From Pyronema omphalodes (Eukaryota > Ascomycota > Pezizomycetes > Pezizales > Pyronemataceae): 64,000 bases of DNA. The translations under genes were made by a program, and so were the position numbers. This document shows, piece after piece, positions 37,616 through 56,663 of this stretch (the first letter of the stretch is position 1; each line of letters opens with the position of its first letter). Where the stretch lies: NCBI GenBank assembly GCA_024516155.1, contig JAJJXM010000017.1, positions 806,001 to 870,000 on the forward strand. Reading direction: 5' to 3'. The notes under the pieces are model-generated. The model was not told the DNA's origin, did not search any database, and saw only the letters and a list, made by a program, of their open reading frames with translations.

Positions 37616-38753
37616 TGTCACGGCTCGAGAATTATTACCTTCCCCCTCCTCGTCATTCATTCACCTATTGTCATTCGCTTCATTATCCAGCACTCCTTTG
37701 TTTATTTATTTCTATTATCCTTCGGTCTTCGATCATCACTCGTCACTCGCCTGGGTTAGGGTTACGCTCAATTCCCAAATTGTCAAAAAGGTCACGTGAC
37801 TTACCCCCAGGGTTAGGGGTCAGCTCGGATCCCTTTTCGGAAATTCCATACCTACGGTCTACCGATCATCTTATCCGATTAGATAAGATCGGTCACGTGT
37901 TCTAATCAATAGTAGATCAGTATGCACGCGCACTGGTCTACTAATGTGCGCACACGTGACTAGGACTAGGGCACTATCATCTTATCGATAAGATAAGATC
38001 TGGTCATGTGACCTTATCAGTATTGCACCATCTTTCCAATCGCAGCTGATCTGGATTCACGTGACTAGGGTTAGGGTTGCACCCGCACGCACACAAACTA
38101 GGGTTAGGTTTGTGACCGTACGCGCACAGCTAGGGTTAGGGTTACGGACGCTCGCGCACGATTAGGGTTACAGAAGCGCGCGCGTGACTACGCTTAGGGT
38201 TACGCTAGCGCGCACGCGAACTACGCTACCGCGCACGCCAGTTACGCTATCGCGCACGCGAGAAAGCTAACGAGCGCGCGACGAGGCTGTGCATGCAAAC
38301 ACGCTAATTTGGTACGAACCGGTTAGCGCGTCTAGAACGCGCAACCGCGACCGCGTTGTTTACTTAGTTATTTTTCGGGAAAATTCTGCAAGTAGTGGCT
38401 CGGCGTGTAAGGAGGAAAAATTGTATATAAGAGGATTGTTTCTTTGTTTGTTTATTTTGTTTTTCTTTTCTCCTTACACAGTTATTTGTTTATTTACAAA
38501 TTCAAATACTTTGTCGAAATCTTTGTTTACGTCCTCGTTCTCGTCCCCGTCTTTGGATCTCTTTGTCCCTTGAAATCTTTGTTTATTTCCTTAACTTCTA
38601 AACACAGAAAGTCTTTAAGTTGATGCTAGACACAGCTTAAGAGTTTCTAACGTTGAAGTTATTATAAGGTTATATCCATTGAACTCAAGAGTGAATGATT
38701 GAGAAGAGCCCTCAGGTTCTCCGTCAGCTATCTCTCCCTTGTTCGCCGTTACA
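37616..38753 (+). mobile_element. solo LTR of family C, inserted in the LINE
   Basis: 1,138 bp, starting TGTCACGGCTCGAG and ending CGCCGTTACA, flanked by TSD TGAGC. It is a close copy of the 5' LTR of element C at 56965-58079. TATATAA lies at 38424-38430 and the presumed RNA start ACACAGTTAT at 38476-38485. Internal sequence is absent, so it arose by LTR-LTR recombination. It contains several TTAGGGTT words and CpG-rich near-palindromic stretches (GCGCGC, GCGCACGCG). Confidence 0.95.
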
Positions 38754-39361
38754 TGAGCCTCCCCAGCAGGGCCTCTCGAGTGCCAACCTCCCTCATACTC
38801 GTTGGGCGGTGGGAATGAGACATCGGCAAGCATGCGTCTCTTGTCCTCCTCCGTTTCCGCACGATTTCCCCGTTCGTCCTCAATGGTCCCCACCATCACA
38901 GACGCCCGCGGTTGGGTCGTACGGAGCACCGTCCAGACTGCATTGCCATCCGCAGATTCGAGAAAAGAGCCCCAACAGCTTCTCTTTTCTTTCCTCTGGA
39001 GACGAAGATATGCATTCCGGCGTTCCTTCTCTTCCTCCGGAGCTGCACGGCCCGCCTTCACTGCTCGTCGAGTGCGACCATATGATCGGCGCGCTGACTT
39101 GATTTCGGTGCCCCACCACCGTTTCGAGCGAGCAGTGATGCGGATCTTGCGCGCATGTGCGTCCCAGAGTGCCGTCAAAGTCTCCCGTATCCAAACCACC
39201 TCTGTCCCCACCTCTTCCTCCGAGCAACGACTGGAGAGTAGCGGTCTGCGTTCACTTTGATGGCGATAATCTAACGCCGCTTTCTTCGCTCTCTCCTCGT
39301 CCTCAAGCCATTCCTTCACCGCCCACCCTCTCGTGGGTGAGTCATAGTCTTCCGGCACCGT
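38754..39361 (-). mobile_element. LINE copy 2, segment 2 (end of endonuclease to RT)
   Basis: Encodes on the minus strand the region between endonuclease and RT (PEDYDSPTRGWAVKEWL, ARKIRITARSKRWW, RRMLADVSFPPPN), collinear with LINE copy 1 and without a stop. It is bounded by the TSD TGAGC on the left and by ACCGT (39357-39361), the TSD of element A, on the right. Confidence 0.93.
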
Positions 39362-40120
39362 TGTCACGAACCGCTAGGGATATGCTTCTGGGAGGGATTG
39401 TAACCACAGCTGGGCTGTGGTTCGTGGGTGTGACGCTGGGGATGGCGTACGTCACGGTTAGGGTTTAAGCGAAGAGGTGGAGCTAGGGCTAGGCGAGAGG
39501 AGTTAGGGTTAAGCGAGGGACAAGGGGGTAAGTGCGGGGTGGAACGAGGAGGGTTTCCTCGAGGTTTGGATTATGTTTTGCTTATGTTTTGTATTGTGTT
39601 ATGCTTATGTTTTGTATTGTGTTTTGCTTATGTTTTGTATTTGTTTTGTATTATGTTTTGGTTTATGTTTGTATTGTGTTTTAGTTAGGTTTTGGGAGTC
39701 ACGGTGGAGCGAGGGGTGTCTCATGATGGATGGAATATCTGCGGGTCAGATGAAGTTGGGAAATCACATGAGCACAGGGACAAAGGTATATAAGGGGACA
39801 TTTGTATTTCATTAGTCTAGTACGCAATCAATTATCTATTTACACAAATCCTATCTACACACTGCAGTTCTATCATCTAAACCGTGACCACAAACCCAGC
39901 CCATCCCAACATACTTACCCATCCCGAATACCTACCTATCCCCCACCCAGATCCCCATCCGACGATCCTATCAGAGGCAACGCTGCAGGGACATCCTGTG
40001 TACAAGGTAAGTACTGCCTGAGCCCGTGACTAACTCACCTAGAAGTCCAGAGCCGAACCCGATTGCATAGCAATCCGACGGTTGTATCGCCTGTCGGCCG
40101 TGTGTAGCCGGATTTTGACA
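39362..40120 (+). repeat. 5' LTR of element A
   Basis: Begins TGTCACGAACCGC and ends GGATTTTGACA. It contains TTAGGGTT words (about 39459 and 39503), a run of TATGTTTTG-type repeats (39570-39690), TATATAA at 39787-39793, and the presumed RNA start at 39822. Confidence 0.96.
39787..39831 (+). promoter_or_regulatory. LTR A TATA box and presumed transcript start
   Basis: TATATAA at 39787-39793 lies 35 bases before ACGCAATCAA (39822-39831). That decamer is the exact complement of the primer-binding site at 40122-40131, so the transcript most likely begins there. Confidence 0.7.
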
Positions 40121-40131
40121 TTTGATTGCGT
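40121..40131 (+). promoter_or_regulatory. self-primer binding site of element A
   Basis: TTTGATTGCGT directly follows the 5' LTR. It does not begin with TGG as tRNA-primed sites do. Ten bases pair with the presumed 5' end of the element's mRNA, as in Tf1-type self-priming. Confidence 0.75.
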
Positions 40132-40213
40132 CCTCCGAACGACACCCGATACAACTAAGGAAGCACGAAGGGCTTCAACCACAACTAAGAAAAAATAAGA
40201 AACAACCAATACC

Positions 40214-41295
40214 GTGGATCCGTTCCGATTGCAGGAGCTGAGCGAGGTTATCGAAAGGGAAGCCACCGGTCCAGCGAGCCCAGTAACCCCCGAACACCGA
40301 TCCCGCCCACAGACTCCGGATTCACCGGGACCAGCACAGATTCCCGAGGACATAGCCTCCATAATGGCCTCTCAACAGGGAACGAGCGGTATGACGCCAC
40401 CCTCGGTCGTGATGACCCAGGAGCAGCTTCAACAACTGTTCCAACAACTCACCTATCGAACCTCTCCGACCAGTAATCCCAAGGTCGAGGATCCCGAACT
40501 CTATCACGGCGAGAGGACGAATTCGGGCTTTCCTAACTCAGTGCGAGCTGAAGTTCAACTGTGAACCGAACAGGTTCGACAGTGATATTAAAAAGGTTAA
40601 TTACGCCAGTTCGCGGTGCCGGGGAAATGCGTGGTCATGGATTGAACCCTCCATCGAGAGGGGGAGGAGCACGTACACCACCTGGGAGGCATTCAAGACT
40701 GCCGTCTCGAGAGCATTTGGAGAGGCGGATTCAAGGGAAGTAGCGAGGAGGAAATTCAAAAATGTCCGTCAGGGAAATCGGTCCGCCGCAGCGTATTGGG
40801 CCGAGTTCCAGAGAATCATCGCGGACCTGCGTTACAACGACGAAATCTACATTGATCAGTTCAGCGATGGACTTCATGTGGACGTACAAAGGCAACTCGC
40901 CATCCTCGAGACCCGTCCGACGAAGATAATCGATTTCGCAAACAAAGCAATTGCATTGGACAACCGGCTGTTCAATTTCCGGACCCTGCGAAACCGATTC
41001 GAACCTCAGTACCAGAATTTCCATCCGAGGAACGGCCACCAGGGATCGACCTTCTCGGAACCCGAGCCGATGGAACTGGATGCCACTCGGAGGGGCAGGC
41101 CTAGGGATAGGACCGAGGAAGAGAAACGACGGAAAAAACAACGAGTGTTTCAACTGCGGGAAGACGGGCCACTATGCCGCCAAATGCCCCCACAAGAAAC
41201 CAATGGGGGAACGACGAACGTACCGGGCGGCAGAAGCCAACATCGACGAGGAACAAGTCGAAGAAAGAGCGGGAAAAGAGGATCCCCAGGAGTAA
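40214..41295 (+). pseudogene. gag of element A (frameshifted; no AUG start)
   Basis: The N-terminal frame matches Gag B from DPFRLQELSE onward, but the codon before Asp is GTG (40214) in the context ACC GTG GA. An in-frame TAA lies six codons upstream and no ATG precedes the conserved part. Frameshifts occur near 40528 and in an A-run near 41132. The capsid-like region continues (ASSRCRGNAWSW, FKNVRQGNRSAAAYWAEF, DGLHVDVQRQLAIL), and the end carries the zinc knuckle CFNCGKTGHYAAKC. The frame closes with GKEDPQE and TAA at 41293-41295. The slippery heptamer GGGAAAA is at 41271-41277. Gag proteins form the particle and bind the element RNA. Confidence 0.88.
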
Positions 41296-44200
41296 AAAAA
41301 CAAGGTGGACTTCTGGGGACGAAGAGTTCCGCCGAACCAGACAATCCGGAACCAGCCTACATGATATCGAGCGTAGGGCCATACCGGCGAGATGAAAAGA
41401 TCATATTGAAAGTAGTAATAAAAGGAAAAGATAATCGAGAACACACCACGACGGCCATGGTGGACTGTGGAGCGATGGAGAACTTCATCGATAAGGAATA
41501 TGTGGAAAAGGTGGGGATTCCGTTGAAAAAGAAGGACGTCCCACGAAGGGTGTTGGCAGTGGACGGACGAGAGATAGCTAGTGGACCAGTCACCCACGAA
41601 GCTATGGTAAGATTACAGATCAACAACCATCAGGAGGATATTCGGGTGCATTGTATCACGATTGGAAACTCACCTATCATTGTGGGACTTCCATGGCTCC
41701 GAACGCACAACCCCAGTATCGACTGGAACGAGGGAAGAGTTACGTTCGACTCGGCGCGTTGCGCTAAGAGGTGCCTAGGGACCTCGACCTCACCTCACGC
41801 GACCACGGTAACGGAAAACGACGCTATTCAGCAATGTCGACTGGACACTGCGCAGGCCGCAGCCAGGGAAGAAAGAATATGCGAAGCAAGTTGGGAAGAA
41901 AGGAAGGGAAACCTGGGGAAGTAGAACGAAGGAAAAAGGAACAAGAAGCGGCGCCGTGGCGAAGAAGGATCGGAAAGGACCAGGAAAGAGAGGGGGAAGA
42001 GGAGCAACAAGGAAGGGTCCAAGTCGGGGCACAAGATGATCTCCTTCGAAGGGAGTTCGAGGAGGACATGGGAAAGGACGAAGAAGAAGAGGAGCTACAA
42101 GGAACCTGGGAAGACGGACAAGGTGATCCTCTTCAAATAAGGGTCGAGAAGGACCAGGAGGAGGAGGAACGAAAAGAGATCGAAGGTAGCGAACAAAACG
42201 ATCCTTTTCGAATGCAGACTGAGGAAAAGGACGGGAAAGAGGAGGAATGGAAAGAGTCCCGGGATGCTGCACAAAACGATCCTTTTCGAATGCAGCCCGA
42301 AGGGAAAGAAGAAAAGGAGGAACGGAAACGGACCCGGGGAACTGCACAGAACGACCCTTTTCGAATGCAGCCCGAGGAAGGGGAAGAAATAAAAGAGGAA
42401 CGGAAACGGATCCGGGATGATGCAGAAAGGGATCCTTTTCGAATGCAGGCCGATGGAAACGAGGGAGATGGGGAGGATGAGGAGGAATCGGAAGGAAACT
42501 TTGACTGGATCGCTTACGCCGCCATGGGATCGCTACAGGATGAGCGGTATGGCTCCGTTCGGGAACCCGTATCCCAGGGTTCAGCCAAACAGCAGGAACC
42601 GACCCCGCGTTCGGCTGGTGACATTGTTCCGGTCGAATATCACGACTTCCTTGCATGTATTCGATAAGGAAGAAGTGTCGGGACGACCCCCACACCGCCA
42701 TCACGACCATCGGATTCCGTTGGTGAAGGGAGGGGTTCCACCATTCGAACCCCTTCGAGCATTGGACGAGGGAAGGTTGAAAACGTTAAGAGAATACTTG
42801 GACACGAGCCTGGAGAAGGGATGGATACGCCGCTCGACATCACCGGCGGGGGCCCCGATTCATTTTGTGAAAAAGAAGGATGGCACACTAAGACTCTGTG
42901 TCGATTATCGGGGGCTTAACGAGATCACATGTGAAAGATAGAACACCTCTCCCGTTGATAGGGGAAGCGTTGGATCGACTATCCAACGCAAAGATATACA
43001 CGAAACTCGACGTACGGGACGCCTATCATAACCTGCGAATCGCAAAGGGAGACGAATGGAAGACCGCTTTTCGGACGAAATACGGTCTTTTTGAATATTT
43101 GGTCATGCCATTCGGTCTTACCAACGCTCCAGCATCCTTTCAGAGGTGGATGAACGAGGTCCTCAGCGACTATCTAGACATCTTCTGTCTGGCATACCTC
43201 GACGACATCCTCATCTACTCGGATGATCTGCAGCAACACCAACAGCATGTGAGAAAGGTTTTGGAACGGGTGGATAAGGTAAAGTTGAGGCTCAAGGCCT
43301 CAAAATGCGAGTTTCACACCACGGAGACGGAGTACTTGGGATATATCATCTCACCAACGGGGATAAGGATGGATCCTGAGAAGGTAAGAGCAGTGGCAGA
43401 ATGGAGGGAACCGACAAACGTAAAGGGAATCCAGAGTTTCATAGGGATTCGCCAACTTCTATAGGAGGTTTATCCGGGATTTTAGCAAGATTACGGCGCC
43501 TCTTACAAAACTGACGAGGAAGGATGTAACATGGAAATGGGACGACGCGGCTAAATCAGCATTCGAACAGCTGAAACGGGCAATGATTTCTGAACCTATC
43601 CTACGACATTTTGACCCCACAAAACCCTTAACCCTGGAGACAGATGCGTCGGATTACGCCATCGGAGCAGTCTGCTCGCAGCCGGACGACCAAGGCATCC
43701 TACATCCCTTGGGATATTTCTCGCGCAAACTGAAGGACCCGGAATTAAATTACGATATACACGATAAAGAACTCCTCGCCATAGTTGAAGGCCTAAATAA
43801 ATGGGGTACCTACTGCAAGAATACTCGACACAAGATTACTATACTGACGGACCATAAAAATTTGGAATATTGGACTACAAAAAAAGACCTAAACCTACGG
43901 CAAGCAAGGTGGGCGGAAATGTGGGCGAATTACGACTTCGCAATAACGTATCGACCCGGCAAACTGGCGGGAAAGCCCGACATCCTATCCAGAGAATCAG
44001 GAGATTCTCCTTGGGAAGGGGAGCTGAAACACAGGCAGAACAGGGAACGAGTTCTTTTGCCGCCGCAGACCTTCTGGATCAACTCCTGCCGAGGTCATGG
44101 AGATACAGGTCGACGAGGAATTGTTAAAAGAAATCCAACAGAAAACAAGGGAGGATCAGGAGATACAGGAGATATTAAGGAAATTACGAACTGCGGAGAA

Positions 44201-45592
44201 GATAGACCGGGAAGGTGGCATTGGGACTTTGCGAAGAACGAGAGGGGCTGTTGCTGTATGAGGGGTTAATATGGGTACCAGACGACCACGAGTTGCGGCT
44301 ACGGCTCCTACATGACCACCATGATGCACTCGTTGCGGGACACCCAGGGACGGGCGAGGACCTTGGAGCTAATCAGTAGGAATTATTATTGGCCTCAGCA
44401 ACGCCAATATGTCAACCGATACGTAGACCACTGCGATACCTGCAAGAGGATTAAGCCAGTTAGGCACGCTCCTTTCGGGCTCCTGAAGCCCTTACAGCCA
44501 CCATCGAGGCCGTGGGATTCGGTGTCCATGGATTTTATCACTGGACTGCCGTCAAGAGGAGGAAACAACGCCCTATGGGTAATTGTGGATCGGTTCACGA
44601 AGATGGCTCACTTCGTGGCCTGTGCGGATACGATGGGGCCGAAGGAACTGGCGGATGGATTCCTGAGGCATGTGGTCAGGGCCCACGGACTTCCTAACGA
44701 TATCGTCTCCGACCGCGGGTCTCTATTCACCTCGACGTTTTGGAAGCGAGTGATGGGGGCAATGGGGACGTCAAGGAAGCTCAGCACCGCATTCCACCCC
44801 GAGACCGACGGACAGACCGAACGCACGAACGCCACCCTCGAACAGTACCTGCGGGCGTACTGCAATTACCAGCAGGACGACTGGGAAAAGCTACTCCCAA
44901 TGGCGGAGTTTTGCTATAACAACACTCAATCCGAGACAACAAAGGTAACCCCCTTTTTCGCGAATTATGGGTATCATCCGCGGTTCGCACCCAGCCTAGG
45001 AAAAATAGAAGGAGGATTCCCGGAGGTGGCGGAATACGTCTCAGCCCTCACCAACCTCCACCGGGAACTACAGGCAGAAATCGGATATGCACAGGCTGCC
45101 CAGGCAGAACAGGCAAATCGGAAGAGACACCCGGATCCCGTACTGAGGGAGGGGGATAGGGTGTGGTTGCGGAGGAAAAACGTGAAGACAACTCGCCCAT
45201 CCAGCAAGTTGGATTACAAGCTGATGGGACCATACACCATCCTCGAGCGAGTGGGGACAAGAGCGTATAAATTGGATCTCCCCGCCAGTGTGAAAATACA
45301 CCCCGTATTCCACATCTCATTGCTCGAGCTGGCTCAACCCACCCTTACACCGATCCCCGGGCACGTCCAACCTCCTCCCCCACCGATTGTTATTGAGGAC
45401 GAAGAGGAATGGGAAGTGGAGGAGATAGTTGATTCCCGCTATCATCGAAACCGACTCCAGTATCGTGTACGTTGGACGGGATTCCCTGACCCCGACCGAA
45501 CCTGGTACCCATCGGAGAACTTCACGAATTCCCCCGACGCTATTCGACGATTCCACACAACCTACCCAAGAAAACCGGCCCCAAGGTTGTAA
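41271..45592 (+). pseudogene. pol of element A: protease, RT, RNase H, integrase, chromodomain (several frameshifts)
   Basis: Entered in the -1 frame at GGGAAAA. Protease: MVDCGAMENFIDKEY and IVGLPWLRTHNP. An acidic tandem-repeat linker follows (42125-42500). [40 protein letters not shown]. RNase H: LETDASDYAIGAVC. Integrase: CDTCKRIKP of the HHCC finger and the DDE residues in MDFITGLP, VSDRGSLF and HPETDGQTERTN. Chromodomain at the end: EWEVEEIVDSRY and VRWTGFPDPDRTWYP. Single-base frameshifts lie near 41800-41900, 42648, 42922, 43447, about 44090, about 44225 and about 44320. The last frame (44312-45592) is intact for integrase and chromodomain. Chromodomains steer integration to histone-marked chromatin in related elements. 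Confidence 0.93.
42125..42453 (+). repeat. acidic tandem repeat inside pol of A (DPFRMQ units)
   Basis: GATCCTTTTCGAATGCAG and close variants start at 42200, 42278, 42353 and 42431, with a weaker copy at 42125; the period is 75-78 bases. Each unit encodes about 25 residues, beginning DPFRMQ and continuing with Glu/Lys/Arg-rich sequence. Periods are multiples of three, so the frame is kept. Element B has no such array between protease and RT. Confidence 0.9.
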
Positions 45593-45597
45593 GAACC

Positions 45598-46536
45598 ATG
45601 GCTAGCCCCATAAACCCCGAGAACCACCAACAATCCGGCGGCTGGTACCGCCAGGATGCCCCATCACCGACAACCACGTATCCCCCACACGATGCCCAAC
45701 ACTGGACCTTTTGTTACGACGACTACTGCGCCACACATCGACAATCGAAAGAAAACTACAACTATTTTCCAACCGCTGGGCGGAAAGGAACCAACGAATG
45801 CAACTGCGGACGGACGCAGGATCCCGAGTTAGAGGCTGTGATCAGGAAGAAACATCTGGACGTTCGGAAGGCCTGTCGGGCCTGGCAACGAGGGAAGAGG
45901 GTCTGCTACGACTGTGGGTTTCTGGTTAACATGGATGGCCATGAAGCTAGATGCGGCGCCACAGGGCCTGCCCGCTCCACGACAACTCCCGCTCCGACAC
46001 CGGATGGACCGACCCCCGTCCCGGAGAAAGACCAGCAGCACCCCAACGGGGAACAGCCACCAACAGCACCCGAGCTGGCCTCGGAAACCTCGAGCGAGAC
46101 TTTGATGGAGAAGAGGTACGTCCCTGTCTACCTCATGTCTCCGAACAGGGACCCCGAACGACTCGCAATAAACCTCTCTTTCTACGGACCACCCACTGGA
46201 AAGGAAGAGGTGCCACCGCCGACCCACACCCCACCGCCATTCGAGGGGTCCTCGTTGCCGGAGCACTCCAGCACTGGTTTCGGAGGGGACCCTTCCTGCC
46301 GCCAACGACTATCCGGCAGATGCCGCCGAAAGAATCGCAATCACCGTCGGCAACGACAACCCCGACCTCGTCCCCATGGGGAACATCAGACAAGCCTCGT
46401 CGGAGTCTCGGCCTGGAGGGGGGAGCTACTGTCACGAACCGCTAGGGATATGCTTCTGGGAGGGATTGTAACCACAGCTGGGCTGTGGTTCGTGGGTGTG
46501 ACGCTGGGGATGGCGTACGTCACGGTTAGGGTTTAA
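45598..46536 (+). CDS. third ORF of element A: Cys/His-rich domain plus C-terminal transmembrane tail encoded by the LTR
   Basis: 312 residues, starting five bases after the pol stop in the -1 frame relative to pol. The N-terminal domain (about 35-120) has C-x4-C-x2-H (HWTFCYDDYCATH), CNCGRTQDPELE, RKACRAWQRGKR, CYDCGFLVN and H-x3-C. A Pro-rich linker follows. The C-terminus reads through the polypurine tract (SAWRGELLSR) and the LTR boundary at residue 278, ending in a hydrophobic helix (MLLGGIVTTAGLWFVGVTLG). No signal peptide is seen, so a tail-anchored topology with the N-terminus in the cytosol is inferred. The ORF in element B is homologous and collinear. The function is unknown to me; it does not look like an envelope glycoprotein. 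Confidence 0.8.
   Translation: MASPINPENHQQSGGWYRQDAPSPTTTYPPHDAQHWTFCYDDYCATHRQSKENYNYFPTAGRKGTNECNCGRTQDPELEAVIRKKHLDVRKACRAWQRGKRVCYDCGFLVNMDGHEARCGATGPARSTTTPAPTPDGPTPVPEKDQQHPNGEQPPTAPELASETSSETLMEKRYVPVYLMSPNRDPERLAINLSFYGPPTGKEEVPPPTHTPPPFEGSSLPEHSSTGFGGDPSCRQRLSGRCRRKNRNHRRQRQPRPRPHGEHQTSLVGVSAWRGELLSRTARDMLLGGIVTTAGLWFVGVTLGMAYVTVRV
46415..46429 (+). promoter_or_regulatory. polypurine tract of element A
   Basis: GGAGGGGGGAGCTAC lies immediately before the 3' LTR; the usual plus-strand primer position. It is also coding sequence of the third ORF. Confidence 0.8.
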
Positions 46537-47188
46537 GCGAAGAGGTGGAGCTAGGGCTAGGCGAGAGGAGTTAGGGTTCAGCGAGGGACAAGGGGGTAAG
46601 TGCGGGGTGGAACGAGGAGGGTTTCCTCGAGGTTTGGATTATGTTTTGCTTATGTTTTGTATTGTGTTATGCTTATGTTTTGTATTGTGTTTTGCTTATG
46701 TTTTGTATTTGTTTTGTATGATGTTTTGGTTTATGTTTGTATTGTGTTTTAGTTAGGTTTTGGGAGTCACGGTGGAGCGAGGGGTGTCTCATGATGGATG
46801 GAATATCTGCGGGTCAGATGAAGTTGGGAAATCACATGAGCACAGGGACAAAGGTATATAAGGGGACATTTGTATTTCATTAGTCTAGTACGCAATCAAT
46901 TATCTATTTACACAAATCCTATCTACACACTGCAGTTCTATCATCTAAACCGTGACCACAAACCCAGCCCATCCCAACATACTTACCCATCCCGAATACC
47001 TACCTATCCCCCACCCAGATCCCCATCCGACGATCCTATCAGAGGCAACGCTGCAGGGACATCCTGTGTACAAGGTAAGTACTGCCTGAGCCCGTGACTA
47101 ACTCACCTAGAAGTCCAGAGCCGAACCCGATTGCATAGCAATCCGACGGTTGTATCGCCTGTCGGCCGTGTGTAGCCGGATTTTGACA
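46430..47188 (+). repeat. 3' LTR of element A
   Basis: 759 bp, same length as the 5' LTR. Differences seen: TTAGGGTTC versus TTAGGGTTA near 46577, and TATGATG versus TATTATG near 46718. It carries the last 35 codons and stop of the third ORF. Confidence 0.96.
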
Positions 47189-49164
47189 ACCGTTACCGAT
47201 GTAACTTCCCAGACCAGGGCTTCGTGGTCGGAAGTGGTTGCGTGTTCCGGGTCCAGGAGGGTGCGGGCACTCACGTACGGAGAGAGTTCCATTGTGGCGA
47301 ACACCAAGTCGATTACGCTATGGCGTTGTTGTCCCGTTTGTGAGTGAGTTTCCTCTCCATCTCCGACGTAGCGGAGGTCATGCGCGTCCATCAGGTCTTC
47401 GAGGAAGAGGTGGTGGATGGGTTGTGTGCAGCGGGGGTTCCACCTCGCGCTGTGCGCATTAAAATCTCCGGCGATGACGGTGACACGAGTGATTATTCGT
47501 GACCATGCTATGTTCCGGGCTGGTCTGACGCCGTCGGATGCTCTAGGAGCGTTGTAGACGTCAACCACCCTCAGTTTTCGAAGTCCCCGACAAAGAATGT
47601 CCAGGACTTGAACGTCTCCTTCCCCTTCCGCTGCTAGTTCCTCCCGGGGGCGGACGGTCCAGACAGAGTCCTTGCGAACCCCAACCAACACCCTCCTTCC
47701 CCAGACGAAGTTGAACGCTGGGTGGCGCCACCCTTGGAAGATCGGGGGTTCCTGGATTAGGACCACGTCGCTCCCCAGCGTCACTCCGCTCTCCATTATG
47801 GCAGTTAGAGCCTCACCGCTCTTTCTGCAATTGTGCTGTAGAACCTGAATTGGTTTCATAATTCAGGTTCTGGGGGCACAACGGCATCTGTCACCGTCTC
47901 GGAAGAGGAGGCAAGAACGGTGTCTTGCGTTGGAGCAAGGGTGGAGGAGGATTCGGGGACCCCATCGGATAGGTCCATGGCTGAGGCGTCGCCGGTATCG
48001 GAGGCTTGTTGTGAAGTATCGGGGGCGTTGACGGAGGGGGCTGGCTCCTCGAGGGCTGGGCGGGTCACGATTGCGGTGGGTTTAACCGTGCGCGGCATCC
48101 TGGCGAGGCGGGCAGCTGCCACCGCGGCCATACGGTCAGGGCACGAATGATCGTTTGCGTAGTGGTTGCCACCGCAGTTGGCACACTTCGGGGTAGCAGG
48201 GTGTGTTTACACGCTGTGCCTCGGGGTCTGGAGCAATCGGAGAGGTCGCATGCGGGGTGGTTAGAGGTTGCATGGTGCTCTGCGCAAAAGACGCAGCGGA
48301 AGATTGTTGGTGTTGAGCAGCGTTCGCGGATGTGGCCCCATTTGAGGCATCCAGAACACTGGCTGTCAGGCCCTTCGAAGACGTACATCTCCGCGCGGTG
48401 ACGTCTGCTGCCCAGCAATACTCCTTTCGAGATTAGCATTTTCGCGGCGGCGGAGCTGCGTACGAAGAAGACGGCGGAGGAGCTCTGGATTTCGCCATTG
48501 GCATAGCGGGTTCGGACTGTCTCCGTTTTGCCTAACCACCTGATGTTGGGCAACACTTCCACACCAGCGTGGTTTGCTTGTACCTCGATTTAGAGGCGTT
48601 GGACGCCTTGAGAGCCCTCACCCATGAAACGATCCAGCGGGACGCCGTGGACTTTCAGACAAACCCAACGGTCGAGTTCCTCAACTCCCGTAACCTCACT
48701 ATCGACCTCACGCACGGCGTTGAGGATGTCCCCACGGTACAGTCCTAAGAGGGTTGCGGCAGCCACACCGGGGACCGTTGTGGCGGTGATGGTGCCTTTG
48801 GCATTGCGGGCGACTTTTAGGATGCGGTGGAATTGGGGAGCGTTCTTGAACCACAAGCAGTTGTTGATGGCTGCGGTGAACGCTTCATCCACTTGTTTTG
48901 ATGCTGGTGCGGCTTCGCGACGGGTGAATACAATGCGGCGTACCTCAGTTGGGAGATTCTGGGCGGGAGCGTATGGATTTGCGGCTTTTTGTTGGAGTTT
49001 TTTGGAGTGACGGGACTGGTGGGCGGTCCATTCCTGTGGGGGAGGCTGGGGGGGGAGGTGTACACTGGATGCTGCTGCATATGTTTGCGCAGCAGTGGGT
49101 TGGACGGCCACTGGTGGGGGTTTGCGGGGGGCCGGGGCGGCGATGGGCGGCGCTCGGGGGACAG
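47189..49164 (-). mobile_element. LINE copy 2, segment 3 (ORF1 C-terminal part and endonuclease)
   Basis: Minus strand. The endonuclease frame starts at the ATG at 47859 (MKPIQVLQHNCRKSG) and is intact to the element A junction, with VLIQEPP, AGDFNAHSARW, VIDLVFATMEL and TSDHEALVWE. The ORF1 stop overlaps this start as ATGA (47859-47856). ORF1 upstream carries zinc knuckles (CSGCLKWGHIRERC, CVFCAEHHA), a frameshift near 48190 and an in-frame TAA at about 48592. Ends are the element A TSD (47189-47193) and the element B TSD GACAG (49160-49164). Confidence 0.93.
47856..49159 (-). pseudogene. LINE copy 2 ORF1, C-terminal two thirds
   Basis: Collinear with ORF1 of LINE copy 1. Conserved stretches are AFTAAINNCLWFKNAPQFHR, ARNAKGTITATTVPGV and NGEIQSSSAVFFV, with CCHC knuckles near 48170-48400. 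One in-frame stop (about 48592) and one frameshift (about 48190) break it. The N-terminal coiled-coil part is at 56669-56948, beyond element B. Confidence 0.9.
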
Positions 49165-50168
49165 TGTTAAGGGCGCCACGCAGATATCGATATCTGAGGT
49201 AGGCGACACACAAAGGTACGTCTATTCTTTCGTTGGTACCTATCGAGGTAGGCTGGCTGTTTTCTTGGTAGCGTGGCCGGTTGGGAGGGGGAAGTGATAG
49301 GTGGTGATGGAAGGGGTTAGGGTTGGGTGCTCTGGGGTTTTGCGTGATCTCGTTCAGCACACGGACAGACAATCTTGGAGTGGTCAAAGTAAGTTGGGGT
49401 GAAAGGTGATTGATTGCGTGAAGACTAACTACAGCGTTCCTCCCTTCTCCTTATATACATTAATCTCCTCCTTTTCCTCGTAACCCGAGGGGCTCATGCC
49501 CAGCAGTCCGACCCCCGGAGCTTCCCATAATTCCCGTAAGTCTTCACGCCCCTTTGTTTCCCATACTAACTAACTAACTAATAATAATAATTACAAACAT
49601 ATACCTGCTAAATAATCGCGTATCCTTTTTCTGGCTTCTTCCTATTTCTCCTCGCCTTCCGAAACGCGCGCCTCGCTTTCCTAATCCTACGCGAGCTCTC
49701 GCGCAGCTCCGTATTCGATCCACCTTCGCGCGTCACCTTCCCGTCGCTCCCTCCTCCGCTCCTTGCCGAAACTTCTTCCGTCTCTTTTCCCCAGCTCGGC
49801 CGAGCTCCACCGAGCTCCACCGAGCTCCACCGAGCTGTGTTACCTTCCTCGCCGTATCCTCCGGAGCTCTCCATAGCTCACCGAAGCTGTACCGAAGCTT
49901 CGCCGAGCTCCGTCCTGCTTCATCTCGCTTTCCTTCGTCCCACCTCGTTCCACCTCTTCCCCGACGACCTTCTTGTTCCTTTTTCCTCCTTGACCCCGCG
50001 ACCTTCTTGTTCCTTTTTCCTCCTTGTCCCCCGTGGTCTTCTTGTTCCTTTGTTATTCTCGTCGTCCCGTGGTAGCCAAGTACCACACCGTTACCGTAAT
50101 TCCCAACGCCCATGTGATTGCTGACGCAACCATAGCTCCTATCAACATGTCATTGTTGATTCTTGACA
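49165..50168 (-). repeat. 3' LTR of element B
   Basis: In element orientation it begins TGTCAAGAATC and ends CCTTAACA. It carries the last 38 codons of the third ORF, GAGCTCCACC direct repeats (about 49796-49834), repeats of CTTCTTGTTCC (49965-50050), and TATATAA in the complement near 49465. Confidence 0.96.
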
Positions 50169-50831: not shown

Positions 50832-53800
50832 CTAATTTTTTGGTGCTGGTTTTCGGGGGTATTTCCGGTGGAAGTCCTGGATGGCTTCTGGGGAGTTGTC
50901 GAAGTTGCCGGAGTGATACCAGGTCTTATCCTCGTCGTGGAATCCCTTCCACTTGACCTTATACTGTAGTTGTTTTCGGTAGTAACGGGAGTCAATTATT
51001 TCTTCGACTTCCCACTCTTGTTGTCCATCCACGATGATCGCCGGAGGAGGAGGTTTGGTGTGTCCGGGGATGGGGGAATACTTTGTTGTGGTGGGTTCTA
51101 AGAGGGAGAGGTGAAAGACGGGGTGGATTTTTACGCTGGGGGGAAGTTCGAGTTTATATGCTTTTGTTCCTATTTTTTCAAGGATGGTGTAGGGCCCTAA
51201 AAGTTTGTAGTCCAATTTATTCGAAGGGCGGGTTGTTTTTATGAACTTCCTTTTTAGCCATACCTTATCTCCTTTTCTCAAAATGGGGTCGGGTTTCCTT
51301 TTCCTATTTGCCTGTTCCGCTTGTTCTGCCTGTGCCCATTGTATTTCTGTACGTAGTTGATTTTGTAGATTATTTAAGGAGGTAACATAATCTGATACAT
51401 CGGGGGTGGGGGTTTTTTCTGTACTAAGGTCCGGTTGAAATCTCGGGTGATATCCATAGTTTGCGTAGAACGGAGTAATTCCTAAGGTTTCGGATTTGGT
51501 ATTGTTGTAACAAAACTCGGCGATAGGCAATAGTGTTTTCCAGTTATCTTGCTGGTAATTACAATATGCTCGTAAATATTGTTCCAGCGTAGCATTTGTT
51601 CTTTCTGTCTGCCCATCCGTTTCGGGATGAAATGCTGTACTGAGGTTCCGAGTTGTTCCCATGGCTTCCATTATTTGTTTCCAAAATTTCGAGGTAAACA
51701 ACGACCCTCGGTCGGATACGATACTGTTGGGGAGGCCATGGGCTCGTACTATGTGGGTGATAAATCCTTCGGCTAAGTCTTTCGGACCCATCGTGTCGTT
51801 GCATGCAACAAAGTGGGCCATCTTGGTGAGTCGATCCACTATGACCCACAACGAATTACTTCCTTCCGTTTCAGGTAATCCGGTGATAAAGTCCATGGAT
51901 ATGGAGTCCCATGGTCTCGTTGGTAGTTGCAATGGTTTGAGGAGTCCGAAGGGGGCATGGCGGATTGGTTTTATTCGTTTGCACGTATCACAGTTGTCTA
52001 CGTACCTCTGTACGTATTGACGCTGTTGTGGCCAGTAGTATTTTCTGGAGAGGAGCTCAAGTGTTCGAGCTCGCCCTGGATGACCCGCGACGAGTGCGTC
52101 GTGGTGATCGTGGAGGATCTGCAGACGGAGTTCGTCATCTTGAGGTATCCAGATGCGTCCCTCGTATGTTAATAACCCGTTCCGTTCCTCGCACAGTCCT
52201 AGTGCTACCTTGTTATCTTGTCGTTCGCCGCTTCGTAATTTCTTCAGGACGTCTCTTATTTCTGGATCGGTCGTCATTTTTGTTTTTATTAGTTTTATTA
52301 TATCCCCATCTGTTTTAATGTTTACTACCTCGGTGGTATTGACAACGAAAGTTTGTTCCGGGAGTAAAATGCGGTCCTTGTTTTGTCGATGTTTCGCCTC
52401 CCCTTCCCAGGGCGAGTCTCCTGACTCGCGGGAAAGGATGTCCGGTTTTCCAGCCAATTTGCCCGGTCTATACACGATGCGGAAGTCATAATTGGCAAGT
52501 ACTTCTCCCCACCGTGCCTGGCGTAAATTGAGATCTTTTTTTGTTTGCCAATACTCTAGGTTTTTGTGGTCCGTCAGTATTTTGATTTGTTGTTGGGTAC
52601 TTTTGCAGTAAGTTGCCCATTTTTGTAGACTTTCCACAATTGCGAGCAATTCTTTATCATGTATGTCATAATTTCGTTCGGCATCTTTTAACTTTCGGGA
52701 GAAGTATCCAAGTGGATGTAGCACACCGTCCGAGTCTGGTTGGGAGCAGACCGCACCGATAGCGTAATCGGATGCGTCTGTTTCTAGGGTAATGGGTTGG
52801 CTGGGTTCGAAATGGCGTAAGATGGGTTGGGTTATCATGGCGAGTTTAATGTTGTCGAACGCTTGTTGTGCCGCATCGTCCCAGACAAAAGGTGTATCTT
52901 TTCGGATAAGTTTCGTGAGCGGTGTGGTAATTTTGCTGAAATCTCGTATGAACCTTCTATAGAAATTCGCAAAGCCAAGGAAGCTTTGGATTCCTTTTAC
53001 GTTCGTTGGCTCTTTCCATTCTTTTACCGCTCTGACTTTTTCCGGGTCCATCGAGATTCCTTCTGGGGCGATGATGTATCCGAGGTATTCCGTTTTGTGT
53101 GTGTGAAATTCACACTTTGTTGCTTTTAGTTTGAGGCCTACGTCTTGGATTCGTGTTAGGATTAATCGTACATGGTCACGATGTTGTTGCAGATTGTCGG
53201 AGTAAATTAAAATATCATCTAGGTATGCGATACAAAATATGTCGAGATAGTCGCTGAGTACTTCATTCATCCAACGCTGGAATGATGCCGGTGCATTGGT
53301 CAATCCGAAAGGCATTACTAGATATTCATAGAGACCGTATTTCGTCCGAAAAGCGGTTTTCCATTCATCCCCCTTGGCTATCCGCAAGTTGTGATAGGCG
53401 TCTCTTACATCTAACTTGGTGTAAATCTTTGCTTTTGATAGTCGATCCAAGGCTTCTCCAATCAATGGGAGCGGAGTCCGGTCTTTGATGGTTATGGCAT
53501 TAAGCCCCCGGTAGTCCACGCATAAGCGGAGCCCCCCGTCTTTCTTTTTTACAAAATGGATTGGGGCCCCCGCCGGGGAGGTTGAGCTTCTGATCCAACC
53601 CTTTTCCAAGCTACTATCGATATATTCTTTTAATGCTTGAAGTCGGTTTTCGTCAAGGGCTCGCAATGGTTCGAACGGCGGTGATTTATTTTCAAGTAAG
53701 GGGATTTGGTGGTCTTGGCGTCGATGTGGCGGTAGGACGGTTTTGTTGTTGTCTCTGAACACTGCTAGATGGTCGTGATATTCCCGCGGTACGATTTTTT

Positions 53801-54539
53801 CTGGAGTTTGTTGTGCCGGGGAGGTGGCTTTCTCGGCGTCTTCCTTGTCCTCTGGTACGTTATTATAACGTTCGTTTGACTCATTTGTGAAGAATATCTC
53901 CTCGTACGCGGAAGAAAGTTCGCTCAGCGAGTCTTCCTGGTCCTCGTGGCTTTTGTTTCCTTTGCCTTGTGTTGTTTGTTGGTATTGTCGTATTGCTGCT
54001 TCTTCGGGAATAGTTCTGGCGTGTGGGGATTGTTCCAAGCAGTATTTTGCACATTTCTCGGAATCGAACGTTACTCTTCCTTCCTTCCAATCAATGTTTG
54101 GATTGTGCTTTTTTAACCATGGTAATCCCATTATTATCGGTGAGTTTCCAATAGTGATGCAGTGGAGTTTTATGTCTTCGTGATGATTGTTGATGGTTAA
54201 CTTAACGGTGGTGTCGTGGGTCACTGGCCCACTTGCAATTTCTCTTCCGTCAACTGCGAGGACTCTTCTTGGGATTATTTTTTTATTTAGGGGCAGTTGG
54301 ATTTGGTACGCGTAATCTTGGTCAATGAAATTTTCTGTAGCCCCGCAGTCGACCATGGCGGTGGTATGATGTGTTTTGTTATTTTTTCCTTGAATAGTGA
54401 CCTTCAAGATAATGTTTTCGTCACGTTGGTATCGTCCTATGCTTGATATTATGAGGGGGCGATCGGGGGGTTTTGGTTCGATGTTCTTTTTCCCCAGGAG
54501 CGGCGTCGGACTTCTTACTCCTGGGGATCCTCTTTTCCC
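50832..54539 (-). CDS. pol of element B: protease, RT, RNase H, integrase, chromodomain
   Basis: The frame is open from the slippery heptamer (54539) to TAG at 50834-50832, 1,235 codons, in the -1 frame relative to gag; there is no ATG at its beginning. Protease: [70 protein letters not shown]. RNase H: LETDASDYAIGAVCSQP. Integrase: zinc finger (HHDALVAGHPG...CDTCKRIKP), MDFITGLP, VSDRGSLFTS, HPETDGQTERTNATLEQ, then the GPY region (YKLLGPYTILEKIG). Chromodomain: EWEVEEIIDSRYY, VKWKGFHDEDKTWYH, with aromatic residues at the positions expected for a methyl-lysine cage. It is made as Gag-Pol by -1 frameshifting, then processed by its own protease. Intact. Confidence 0.96.
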   Translation of the reverse strand, partial: GKRGSPGVRSPTPLLGKKNIEPKPPDRPLIISSIGRYQRDENIILKVTIQGKNNKTHHTTAMVDCGATENFIDQDYAYQIQLPLNKKIIPRRVLAVDGREIASGPVTHDTTVKLTINNHHEDIKLHCITIGNSPIIMGLPWLKKHNPNIDWKEGRVTFDSEKCAKYCLEQSPHARTIPEEAAIRQYQQTTQGKGNKSHEDQEDSLSELSSAYEEIFFTNESNERYNNVPEDKEDAEKATSPAQQTPEKIVPREYHDHLAVFRDNNKTVLPPHRRQDHQIPLLENKSPPFEPLRALDENRLQALKEYIDSSLEKGWIRSSTSPAGAPIHFVKKKDGGLRLCVDYRGLNAITIKDRTPLPLIGEALDRLSKAKIYTKLDVRDAYHNLRIAKGDEWKTAFRTKYGLYEYLVMPFGLTNAPASFQRWMNEVLSDYLDIFCIAYLDDILIYSDNLQQHRDHVRLILTRIQDVGLKLKATKCEFHTHKTEYLGYIIAPEGISMDPEKVRAVKEWKEPTNVKGIQSFLGFANFYRRFIRDFSKITTPLTKLIRKDTPFVWDDAAQQAFDNIKLAMITQPILRHFEPSQPITLETDASDYAIGAVCSQPDSDGVLHPLGYFSRKLKDAERNYDIHDKELLAIVESLQKWATYCKSTQQQIKILTDHKNLEYWQTKKDLNLRQARWGEVLANYDFRIVYRPGKLAGKPDILSRESGDSPWEGEAKHRQNKDRILLPEQTFVVNTTEVVNIKTDGDIIKLIKTKMTTDPEIRDVLKKLRSGERQDNKVALGLCEERNGLLTYEGRIWIPQDDELRLQILHDHHDALVAGHPGRARTLELLSRKYYWPQQRQYVQRYVDNCDTCKRIKPIRHAPFGLLKPLQLPTRPWDSISMDFITGLPETEGSNSLWVIVDRLTKMAHFVACNDTMGPKDLAEGFITHIVRAHGLPNSIVSDRGSLFTSKFWKQIMEAMGTTRNLSTAFHPETDGQTERTNATLEQYLRAYCNYQQDNWKTLLPIAEFCYNNTKSETLGITPFYANYGYHPRFQPDLSTEKTPTPDVSDYVTSLNNLQNQLRTEIQWAQAEQAEQANRKRKPDPILRKGDKVWLKRKFIKTTRPSNKLDYKLLGPYTILEKIGTKAYKLELPPSVKIHPVFHLSLLEPTTTKYSPIPGHTKPPPPAIIVDGQQEWEVEEIIDSRYYRKQLQYKVKWKGFHDEDKTWYHSGNFDNSPEAIQDFHRKYPRKPAPKN

Positions 54540-55591
54540 GACTCGTCTTCTTGTGTCTCTTCGCTCAGCATTGCTTCAGCTGCACGGTAGGTTCTTCTCG
54601 GAGGATAAGGTTTTTTGTTAGGGCAGCGAGCGGAAAAATGTCCTGTCTTTCCGCAGTTGAAACACTCATTGTTTCGTCTTCTCTTTTCTTCTTCCATTCG
54701 GTCTTTTCCTCTTGTTCTTCGGGTTGCATCTAATTCCATCGGTGTAGGGTCGGACATGTGGTTTTCATACGTGCGGGGGTGGCTGACATGGGTATCACGG
54801 AATTCCCGGTAGTATTGGTTGTCGTTTCGAGTTCGAAGGGTTCGGAAATTGAACAATCTATTGTCGAGGGCAATAGATTTGTTTACGTAGTCCGTGATAT
54901 TGCGTGGTCTGTCATCTAACAGGGCGAGTTGTCGTTGTACTTCCATGTTCAACCCGTCATGGAACTGATCAATATACATTGAGTCGTTATAATCCAAATC
55001 CGCCATTAGTCTTTGGAAATCGGCCCAATAGGCAGCAGCAGAGCGGTTTCCTTGCTTAATGTTTTTGAATTTTCGTCGTGCTACTTCCTTGCTATCGGCT
55101 TCTCCGAAGGCTCTACCAATAGCTGTCTTGAAATCTTTCCAGGTTTCATACTTACTTACGCCCTCCTCTTTCATTGATGGTTCGATCCATGCCCAGGCGT
55201 TTCCCCTACACCTGGCACTGGCATAATTGACTTTTTTCGCATCCCTATCGAATTTGCTCGGTTCACAGTTGAACTTGAGCTCACATTGGATAAGGAACGC
55301 TCTTAACTTGGCTCTTTCGCCGTAATAGAGCTCGGGGTCTTCGATCTTAGGTTGACAAGACGGGGGAGGTTGATACAACTGTTGCAAAAGGGTTTGCAGT
55401 TGATCGGTCGTCATCTGGACGGGGGGAAGGGAGGCTCCCGAAGTTCCGTGAGGGGTCGTCATTCCGGAGTTATCTTCTTCGTTCGTTGTTGGGGACTGGG
55501 GTCTCGAAGGTTGTTCTGGCGTCACTGGGCTGGCTGGTCTGGCGTACTCGCTGATAGCTTCGCCGAGATCTTGTAACTGGAAGGGATCCAG
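54515..55591 (-). CDS. gag of element B (probable CUG start)
   Basis: 358 residues if started at the CTG at 55591 (context ACC CTG GAT). The frame is open only 21 codons further up, to TTG at 55654 next to an in-frame TGA in the primer-binding site, and no ATG occurs before the conserved DPFQLQDL start that matches element A. The first in-frame ATG lies after conserved sequence (RPASPVTPEQPSRPQSPT). Capsid-like region: YGERAKLRAFLIQCELKFNC, GNAWAWIEPSM, QGNRSAAAYWADFQRLM. Zinc knuckle: CFNCGKTGHFSARC. GGGAAAA at 54539-54533 precedes the stop TAA (54517-54515) by five codons. It forms the particle. Confidence 0.88.
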   Translation of the reverse strand: MDPFQLQDLGEAISEYARPASPVTPEQPSRPQSPTTNEEDNSGMTTPHGTSGASLPPVQMTTDQLQTLLQQLYQPPPSCQPKIEDPELYYGERAKLRAFLIQCELKFNCEPSKFDRDAKKVNYASARCRGNAWAWIEPSMKEEGVSKYETWKDFKTAIGRAFGEADSKEVARRKFKNIKQGNRSAAAYWADFQRLMADLDYNDSMYIDQFHDGLNMEVQRQLALLDDRPRNITDYVNKSIALDNRLFNFRTLRTRNDNQYYREFRDTHVSHPRTYENHMSDPTPMELDATRRTRGKDRMEEEKRRRNNECFNCGKTGHFSARCPNKKPYPPRRTYRAAEAMLSEETQEDESGKEDPQE

Positions 55592-55648
55592 GGTTTTTTT
55601 TTTGTTTGGACGGTCGTTCGTTGGGTGTGTCGGGTACCTCGGGGGGAG

Positions 55649-55659
55649 ACGCAATCAAA
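55649..55659 (-). promoter_or_regulatory. self-primer binding site of element B
   Basis: On the minus strand TTTGATTGCGT directly follows the 5' LTR. Ten bases are complementary to ACGCAATCAA at 55914-55905 within the LTR, 39 bases downstream of TACATAA (55953-55947), the likely TATA element. Confidence 0.75.
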
Positions 55660-56663
55660 TGTTAAGGGCGCCACGCAGATATCGATATCTGAGGTAGGCG
55701 ACACACAAAGGTACGTCTATTCTTTCGTTGGTACCTATCGAGGTAGGCTGGCTGTTTTCTTGGTAGCGTGGCCGGTTGGGAGGGGGAAGTGATAGGTGGT
55801 GATGGAAGGGGTTAGGGTTGGGGGCTCTGGGGTTTTGCGTGATCTCGTTCAGCACACGGACAGACAATCTTGGAGTGGTCAAAGTAAGTTGGGGTGAAAG
55901 GTAATTGATTGCGTGAAGACTAACTACAGCGTTCCTCCCTTCTCCTTATGTACATTAATCTCCTCCTTTTCCTCGTAACCCGAGGGGCTCATGCCCAGCA
56001 GTCCGACCCCCGGAGCTTCCCATAATTCCCGTAAGTCTTCACGCCCCTTTGTTTCCCATACTAACTAACTAACTAATAATAATAATTACAAACATATACC
56101 TGCTAAATAATCGCGTATCCTTTTTCTGGCTTCTTCCTATTTCTCCTCGCCTTCCGAAACGCGCGCCTCGCTTTCCTAATCCTACGCGAGCTCTCGCGCA
56201 GCTCCGTATTCGATCCACCTTCGCGCGTCACCTTCCCGTCGCTCCCTCCTCCGCTCCTTGCCGAAACTTCTTCCGTCTCTTTTCCCCAGCTCGGCCGAGC
56301 TCCACCGAGCTCCACCGAGCTCCACCGAGCTGTGTTACCTTCCTCGCCGTATCCTCCGGAGCTCTCCATAGCTCACCGAAGCTGTACCGAAGCTTCGCCG
56401 AGCTCCGTCCTGCTTCATCTCGCTTTCCTTCGTCCCACCTCGTTCCACCTCTTCCCCGACGACCTTCTTGTTCCTTTTTCCTCCTTGACCCCGCGACCTT
56501 CTTGTTCCTTTTTCCTCCTTGTCCCCCGTGGTCTTCTTGTTCCTTTGTTATTCTCGTCGTCCCGTGGTAGCCAAGTACCACACCGTTACCGTAATTCCCA
56601 ACGCCCATGTGATTGCTGACGCAACCATAGCTCCTATCAACATGTCATTGTTGATTCTTGACA
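55660..56663 (-). repeat. 5' LTR of element B
   Basis: 1,004 bp. Differs from the 3' LTR at TACATAA versus TATATAA, at GTAATTGATT versus GTGATTGATT, and at GGGGGCT versus GGGTGCT. Confidence 0.96.

Follow-up and report, generated by a model that had tools for sequence, protein, structure and literature searches.

A candidate third gene of fungal chromoviruses with a likely membrane anchor encoded in the long terminal repeat

A third open reading frame, ORF3, lies downstream of pol in two Ty3/gypsy-type elements of the ascomycete Pyronema omphalodes. Judged by sequence comparison, it appears to be a genuine, conserved third gene of a putatively self-priming lineage of fungal chromoviruses. The end of the gene is situated in U3 of the 3' LTR, and it is likely, and well supported, that this part of U3 encodes a membrane anchor. 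When families A, B and C are taken together, the U3-encoded tail varies as protein-coding DNA, and it does so in the frame of ORF3 only. The two elements, A and B, were studied in a window of 64,000 nucleotides (the whole stretch analysed: contig JAJJXM010000017.1 of assembly GCA_024516155.1, forward-strand positions 806,001 to 870,000), and their features are collected in Table 1.

LTR retrotransposons are usually held to need gag and pol only, and the routes by which capsids reach assembly sites or the nucleus in fungal cells are poorly known. A conserved membrane protein of the element's own, if true, would make capsid targeting in fungal cells testable, and the LTR is here both coding and regulatory. 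The proposal as a whole combines a conserved ORF3, an anchor coded by U3, translation by reinitiation, and a tail-anchored adaptor that faces the cytosol and serves Gag, the capsid or the RNA; in this complete form it is given slightly less than an even chance.

Elements A and B

Element A is flanked on both sides by the target duplication ACCGT, and its LTRs measure 759 bp each. The LTRs of element B are 1004 bp long, and CTGTC occurs on both flanks of that element. The pol of element B contains the domains RVT_1, RT_RNaseH, H2C2, rve, SH3_Tf2-1 and Chromo (1.3e-11), and the chromodomain in pol of element A is matched at 1.2e-11. With reverse transcriptase, RNase H and integrase in gypsy order and a C-terminal chromodomain, both elements can be classified from their sequences as chromoviruses. 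A self-priming layout, in which the primer site is complementary to the 5' end of the RNA, belongs to Tf1-type elements. Elements A and B share with Tf1-type chromoviruses the SH3_Tf2-1 domain and chromodomain in pol, and their primer site would pair with the start of the RNA as it is predicted; Tf1 is not known to have a third gene. The 10-nt match ACGCAATCAA is present in A and B, 35-38 nt 3' of a TATA-like box, at the predicted RNA start, and R of element A is predicted to begin near LTR position 461, which is that predicted 5' end.

Gag and early pol of element A lie in several frames, which indicates that this copy is broken there. Its LTRs nevertheless differ at 2 of 759 sites, and the element may have been copied in trans. 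The last 430 codons of pol are free of stops in 12 of the 15 A loci, out of 30, in which a script located the start. Among B loci the start was located in 3 of 13, and the shortfall in both families probably reflects opposite-strand loci that were left unturned. In element B, gag and pol occupy different frames with a short overlap (54400-54620, minus strand), as in a gag-pol frameshift. Element A also contains four imperfect 77-nt tandem units (42146-42453, spacing 75-78) between the protease and reverse transcriptase parts. In U5 of this element, at 40007-40042 and again at the matching site of the 3' LTR, a 36-nt stretch resembles an intron of very small size (GTAAGT...CTAAC...TAG); it is present in 12 of 30 A loci as stored, on one strand only.

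Table 1. Features of elements A and B in the 64,000-nucleotide window
Feature	Position	Strand	Basis or remark
Element A, Ty3/gypsy chromodomain element	39362-47188	+	Tf1-like, predicted self-priming
5' LTR of element A	39362..40120	+	2 differences from 3' LTR
Primer-binding site of element A, TTTGATTGCGT..	40121..40134	+	complementary to ACGCAATCAA, LTR position 461
gag and first part of pol, element A	40214..44311	+	several frames
End of pol, element A: integrase, SH3_Tf2-1, chromodomain	44312..45592	+	stop codon 5 nt before ORF3
ORF3, candidate third gene of element A, 312 aa	45598..46536	+	ATG at 45598, TAA at 46534-46536
Cys/His (zinc-type) domain, residues 31-119	45688..45954	+	conservation, pLDDT, dN/dS
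Pro-rich, fast-evolving linker of element A ORF3	45955..46413	+	dN/dS, low pLDDT
Polypurine tract GGAGGGGGGAG	46415..46425	+	read within codons for W-R-G-E of ORF3
U3-encoded tail of element A ORF3, 35 codons and stop	46430..46536	+	LTR start, frame-specific variation
Predicted transmembrane helix, residues 285-308	46450..46521	+	AlphaFold, hydrophobicity
3' LTR of element A	46430..47188	+	LTR-LTR comparison
3' LTR of element B	49165..50168	-	LTR-LTR comparison
U3-encoded tail of element B ORF3	50053..50168	-	first 116 bases of U3
ORF3 of element B, 258 aa	50053..50829	-	same architecture as A; starts 2 nt after pol stop
pol of element B, open, with chromodomain	50832..54407	-	
gag of element B	54515..55654	-	
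5' LTR of element B	55660-56663	-	3 differences from 3' LTR

The Cys/His domain of ORF3

The first-pass annotation, made from the sequence alone, had described an ORF after pol with a Cys/His-rich domain, a Pro-rich linker and a C-terminal hydrophobic helix, and this architecture was found again in full. ORF3 of element A is intact. Its N-terminal domain comprises the motifs W36-x2-C39-x4-C44-x2-H47, C68-x-C70-G71 and C103-x2-C106-x8-H115-x3-C119. In an alignment of 69 proteins, H31, H35, W36, C39, C44, H47, C68, C70, H74, C93, C103, C106, H115 and C119 are either invariant or conserved to 90% or more, a set that includes eight Cys and five His; at position 74 the copy of A in the window has Gln, and nearly all relatives have His. 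W-x2-C-x4-C-x2-H is found in 77 of 83 ORF3 homologues and C-x2-C-x8-H-x3-C in 75 of them.

The AlphaFold model of element A ORF3 reaches pLDDT values of 87-92 for residues 71-120; the values for the whole protein are low (mean pLDDT 62, pTM 0.30), and the linker is of low confidence. A fold search against solved and viral structures gave no match, so the label "zinc-type" rests on the Cys/His pattern. Sequence searches for relatives of solved structure likewise gave none, either for ORF3 of element B or for a profile of 33 sequences. In Pfam, only a short motif named WCCH was recovered, together with weak or scattered matches. Repeat annotation would split ORF3 at the LTR boundary, which may partly explain the lack of a Pfam family for the whole protein. 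Some source records label ORF3 relatives "ribosomal protein L32". Homology to L32 was considered (10 of 33 members at E<=1, best 0.0038) and rejected, the match being taken as a zinc-ribbon likeness.

The tail encoded by U3

The crossing of the polypurine tract by the ORF, with its last 35 codons in U3, had also been proposed from the first reading and is borne out by the LTR comparison. The 3' LTR starts inside codon 278, the first base of which precedes it, so that codons 278-312 and the stop are the first 107 bp of U3. A W-x-G motif ahead of the tail also occurs in ORF3 relatives. The conservation of residues 273-279 may be imposed by the purine tract and the end of the LTR and is therefore not counted as evidence for a function of the protein; from residue 284 onward this constraint should no longer apply.

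The hydrophobic peak of element A ORF3 falls within the tail (KD19 1.80 at residues 285-303), and the best KD19 window outside the last 45 residues reaches 0.11. Read in either of the other two frames, this part of U3 is interrupted by stops, and KD19 rises no higher than 0.79 and 0.02; when its single bases were shuffled 20,000 times, 0.6% of the shuffles were open with KD19 >=1.6. AlphaFold predicts a helix at residues 281-311, with pLDDT 75 for 281-290 and 92-96 for 291-310, in line with the tail-anchored layout suggested earlier. Within the helix, W297 is kept in 33, L286 in 32, T/S302 in 32, D284 in 29 and R/K311 in 29 of 34 representatives, which share less than 80% identity and were drawn from those aligned proteins whose C-terminus is complete (65 of 69).

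Fifty-seven of the 83 homologues end in a hydrophobic helix (KD19 1.5-2.6), with the hydrophobic window ending 1-12 residues from the C-terminus, and a general absence of the segment from relatives, which would have spoken against an anchor, was thus not seen. Most of the other 26 stop before the helix, as gene fragments do. Two of these 26 stop inside it (P0084, P0099), three end in other sequence (P0085, P0100, P0139), and P0105, P0107, P0110 and P0133 (4 of 83) end exactly at the first tail codons, a loss of the helix that CGA-to-TGA decay could explain. A hydrophobic stretch in the first 40 residues, as in a signal-like N-terminus, occurs in none of the 83 homologues, and the lack of a signal peptide noted at first sight thus extends to the relatives. 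By prediction, ORF3 would therefore have the layout of a tail-anchored protein, with a single helix near the C-terminus and no signal peptide.

Selection on domain, linker and tail

Within families, dN/dS of the Cys/His domain is 0.17 in A, 0.15 in B and 0.13 in C, that of the linker 0.41, 1.21 and 0.69, and that of the U3 tail 0.11, 0.09 and 0.53, respectively (27 A, 10 B and 6 C sequences, one C sequence being frame-shifted in the tail). Values near 1, named beforehand together with random stops as evidence against the gene, are seen neither for the domain nor for the tail, although the linker of family B does exceed this level.

Pooled over families A, B and C, changes in the tail number 24 synonymous and 15 non-synonymous, where 11.7 synonymous ones are expected (p=4.5e-5; 26 A, 10 B and 24 C sequences, the frame-shifted C copy dropped, transition weight 4); the test treats changes as independent, and the copies are related. 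The other two frames gave 3 synonymous to 35 non-synonymous and 6 to 32. Family C by itself shows a trend only (7 synonymous, 6 non-synonymous, p 0.057). Variants present in two or more copies mostly predate insertion. In A and B, such variants number 7 synonymous and 0 non-synonymous in the tail versus 14 and 24 in the linker (Fisher p 0.0026); shared tail variants of family C are 2 synonymous and 5 non-synonymous, which limits this result to A and B. Between families, pN/pS is 0.40-0.75 for the tail and 0.70-1.02 for the linker, values that are near saturation and are given no weight. Before counting, L042, L046, L054 and L060 of family A, L004, L012 and L013 of family B and L065 and L091 of family C were dropped owing to stops, a frame shift, or a motif missed by the script (L046 is still included in dN/dS), so that the selection test leans to intact copies.

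Distribution

A search of the host genome (60.8 Mb) with ORF3 of element A gave 38 full-length rows (residues 1-312), of which 32 are free of stops. ORF3 of element B is represented by 13 rows, 10 without a stop. The search with ORF3 of A also matched 54 rows of family C, assigned by score and frame length, of which 51 have no stop in the matched part; six C genes and 20 further C-terminal stretches (1 of the 20 unparsed) were read. All counts from genome searches are lower bounds.

The position of the tail in the LTR was determined for A and B by full LTR comparison and is indicated for C and E by the spacing of U3 copies. A search with the U3 start of family C, beginning at TGTCA, revealed at least eight copy pairs 6.8-7.4 kb apart in 40 rows scored of 252 candidates; the equivalent search for family E, begun one base inside TGTCA, revealed at least three pairs about 6.3 kb apart among 15 rows. 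Such copies lie one element length apart, as LTR pairs do, and with A and B this brings to at least four the number of families (A, B, C and E) whose tail is part of the LTR. The arrangement had been regarded as an unusual one of element A; the U3-encoded anchor stands, and its singularity does not, since the four families have it in common.

Outside the host genome, protein searches gave overlapping sets of 13, 45 and at least 113 relatives, together at least 154 identifiers. The 83 homologues mentioned above are those of the 154 with an HW[ST] motif and more than 230 residues. One relative is named Pyronema domesticum; the remainder come for the most part from jgi and ena and probably represent metagenomes. 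In a second clade (P0031, P0046 and others), the linker looks like a coiled coil by eye, with weak matches to coiled-coil models. Among the matches listed for P0055, a member of this clade, identity with the host genome is at most 37% over most of the length, to A-family copies, and no second-clade element was seen among them. No ORF3 relatives were found in the viral contigs scanned.

The junction of pol and ORF3

The distance from the pol stop to the ATG of ORF3 is 5 nt in A (25 of 28 parsed), 2 nt in B (9 of 12 parsed) and -1 in C, as TAATG (6 of 6); it is 3, 3 and 5 nt in D (3 of 5 parsed) and 11, 11 and 13 nt in E (3 of 4 parsed). Stop and ATG are always within -1 to 13 nt of each other, which suggests reinitiation after pol. 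Families A, B and C agree in how the ORF3 frame is set relative to that of pol, as do one D copy and two E copies; the exceptions are two D copies (3 nt) and a single decayed E copy (13 nt), so that a shared frame-dependent mechanism is conceivable. Upstream of its ATG, however, the ORF3 frame stays open for no more than 6 codons in C and for 3 in five copies of B (L005-L009), leaving little room for a frameshift from pol, and such expression is not favoured by these sequences. No stop separates pol from ORF3 in one D copy (L020) and in the relatives P0127, P0146, P0152 and P0153, which are taken as probably altered copies. In three junctions folded, no stable or conserved RNA structure was found (z -0.35, 0.73, -1.40). 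By eye, a slippery heptamer, A AAA AAT, lies just before the pol stop of B and is absent in A and C.

Proposed role and alternative explanations

Lack of a signal peptide, a Cys-rich N-terminal domain and a terminal helix are most simply read as a tail-anchored protein that faces the cytosol. The protein would be made by stop-start reinitiation after pol and inserted post-translationally into a membrane, with its zinc-type domain in the cytosol. More tentatively, this domain could bind Gag, capsid or element RNA, and the anchor could hold assembly or pre-integration particles at the membrane of the ER or nuclear envelope. The adaptor role is a guess with at best an even chance of being right, and the ER or nuclear envelope is one choice of membrane, the mitochondrial outer membrane fitting the short basic tail about as well. 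In Ty1, co-translational targeting of Gag to the ER gathers its RNA into assembly sites (PMC3945221); where Ty1 uses SRP-directed targeting of Gag, ORF3 would be an element-encoded route to a membrane site. As the anchor is the start of U3, each retrotransposition copies it into both LTRs, and only the 3' copy is joined to the gene. It is rather doubtful that ORF3 represents, in the widest sense, a third gene class of fungal chromoviruses, neither env nor sORF2, in which a tail-anchored zinc-domain protein docks capsids or pre-integration complexes at the nuclear envelope or ER, anchor and LTR terminus or promoter edge being the same DNA, and selection acting on U3 for protein and regulation alike throughout an old and large family of elements.

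Antagonism of silencing and passage between cells are the main rivals to the adaptor. Repeats are silenced in many fungi, and ORF3 might be a membrane-based antagonist of host silencing (RNAi, methylation), akin to retroviral accessory proteins. This is unlikely, and its appeal comes from the W-x2-C-x4-C-x2-H stretch of the N-terminal domain, which resembles the motif of Pfam family PF03716 (WCCH); the family matches 26 of 69 members at E<=0.1 (best 2.3e-5) and is recorded as a precomputed domain of P0096. PF03716 covers 25 positions only, however, and the match in element A spans 17 residues and scores 13.2 bits, below the curated cut-off of 22.4. The Pfam family already takes in retrotransposon sequences, so that the match may be circular, and the motif leaves the anchor and the C2HC finger unexplained. 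The geminivirus protein V2/AV2 is also described as carrying a WCCH domain, at residues 79-94 (PMC8532979). An envelope-like or FAST-like protein mediating passage of particles between cells or hyphae is very unlikely; fungal cell walls make it improbable that particles pass freely, although exchange by hyphal fusion would not require this. Such a function would suit a third gene after pol with one predicted transmembrane helix, and env-less MDG1 elements, whose sORF2 is likewise a transmembrane protein of an LTR retrotransposon without env, can use this short protein for cell-to-cell passage (PMC11952523). The homologues show no signal peptide of the kind an envelope protein has, and the long N-terminal Cys/His domain and few residues past the helix of ORF3 are the reverse of FAST and sORF2 proteins, with an N-terminal ectodomain of about 30 residues, a helix and a C-terminal endodomain (PMC11952523). 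The MDG1 sORFs also differ in genome position, upstream of gag, and in size (63-107 aa), and a Cys/His domain is not mentioned in the sections of that paper dealing with them.

Two further explanations concern the helix itself. The Cys/His domain might be functional and the helix might only set abundance or location, e.g., by degradation or by targeting to the mitochondrial outer membrane. The small number of residues past the helix, a basic residue (R/K) close to the C-terminus in 29 of the 34 representatives and the moderate hydrophobicity of the homologues fit outer-membrane tail anchors as well as those of the ER; the conserved Trp and the Asp/Thr pattern, on the other hand, suggest specific helix contacts rather than a bare anchor, and this explanation is considered quite unlikely. 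That the hydrophobic tail is an accident of the U3 reading frame is hardly credible. The purine tract and TGTCA terminus alone would favour W-x-G-x-[LV]-[LM]-S just before the helix, and family C taken alone yields a trend only, but the constraint does not stop at the LTR terminus, and in A, B and C combined it is confined to the reading frame of ORF3; the helix, moreover, persists across ORF3 proteins sharing 30-46% identity.

Relation to known elements

Novikova et al. (2010, PMC2864245) depict fungal chromoviruses that carry an "additional ORF with unknown function". Those elements are also chromodomain Ty3/gypsy elements of fungi, and their extra ORF may be a counterpart of ORF3; the passages concerned do not describe an anchor, a U3 overlap or selection. 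A paper reporting Ty1 and Ty3 types in fungi does not describe an ORF3-like gene in its corresponding part (PMC3248453). The literature searched, mostly outside subscription journals, yielded no account of a fungal element with an anchor encoded by U3. Coding sequence in U3 of the 3' LTR is familiar from lentiviral nef. It is also known from MMTV sag (PMC9412291). Both are unrelated retrovirus genes, and in ORF3 only the tail is in U3, the gene starting at the pol stop. The env of errantiviruses is a third ORF of a Ty3/gypsy-type element and encodes a membrane protein (PMC12992720); it is an F-type envelope glycoprotein, whereas ORF3 has no signal-like N-terminus.

Other features of the window

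By eye, pieces of LINE-like ORFs flank A and B on the minus strand (35089-39367 and 47107-49387), so that both elements apparently sit within antisense LINE sequence. At 3305-8301 there is a LINE-like series of ORFs that is open, on the plus strand, where two more gag-like ORFs with a zinc knuckle were also recognized by eye, at 58323-59441 and 61025-62002.
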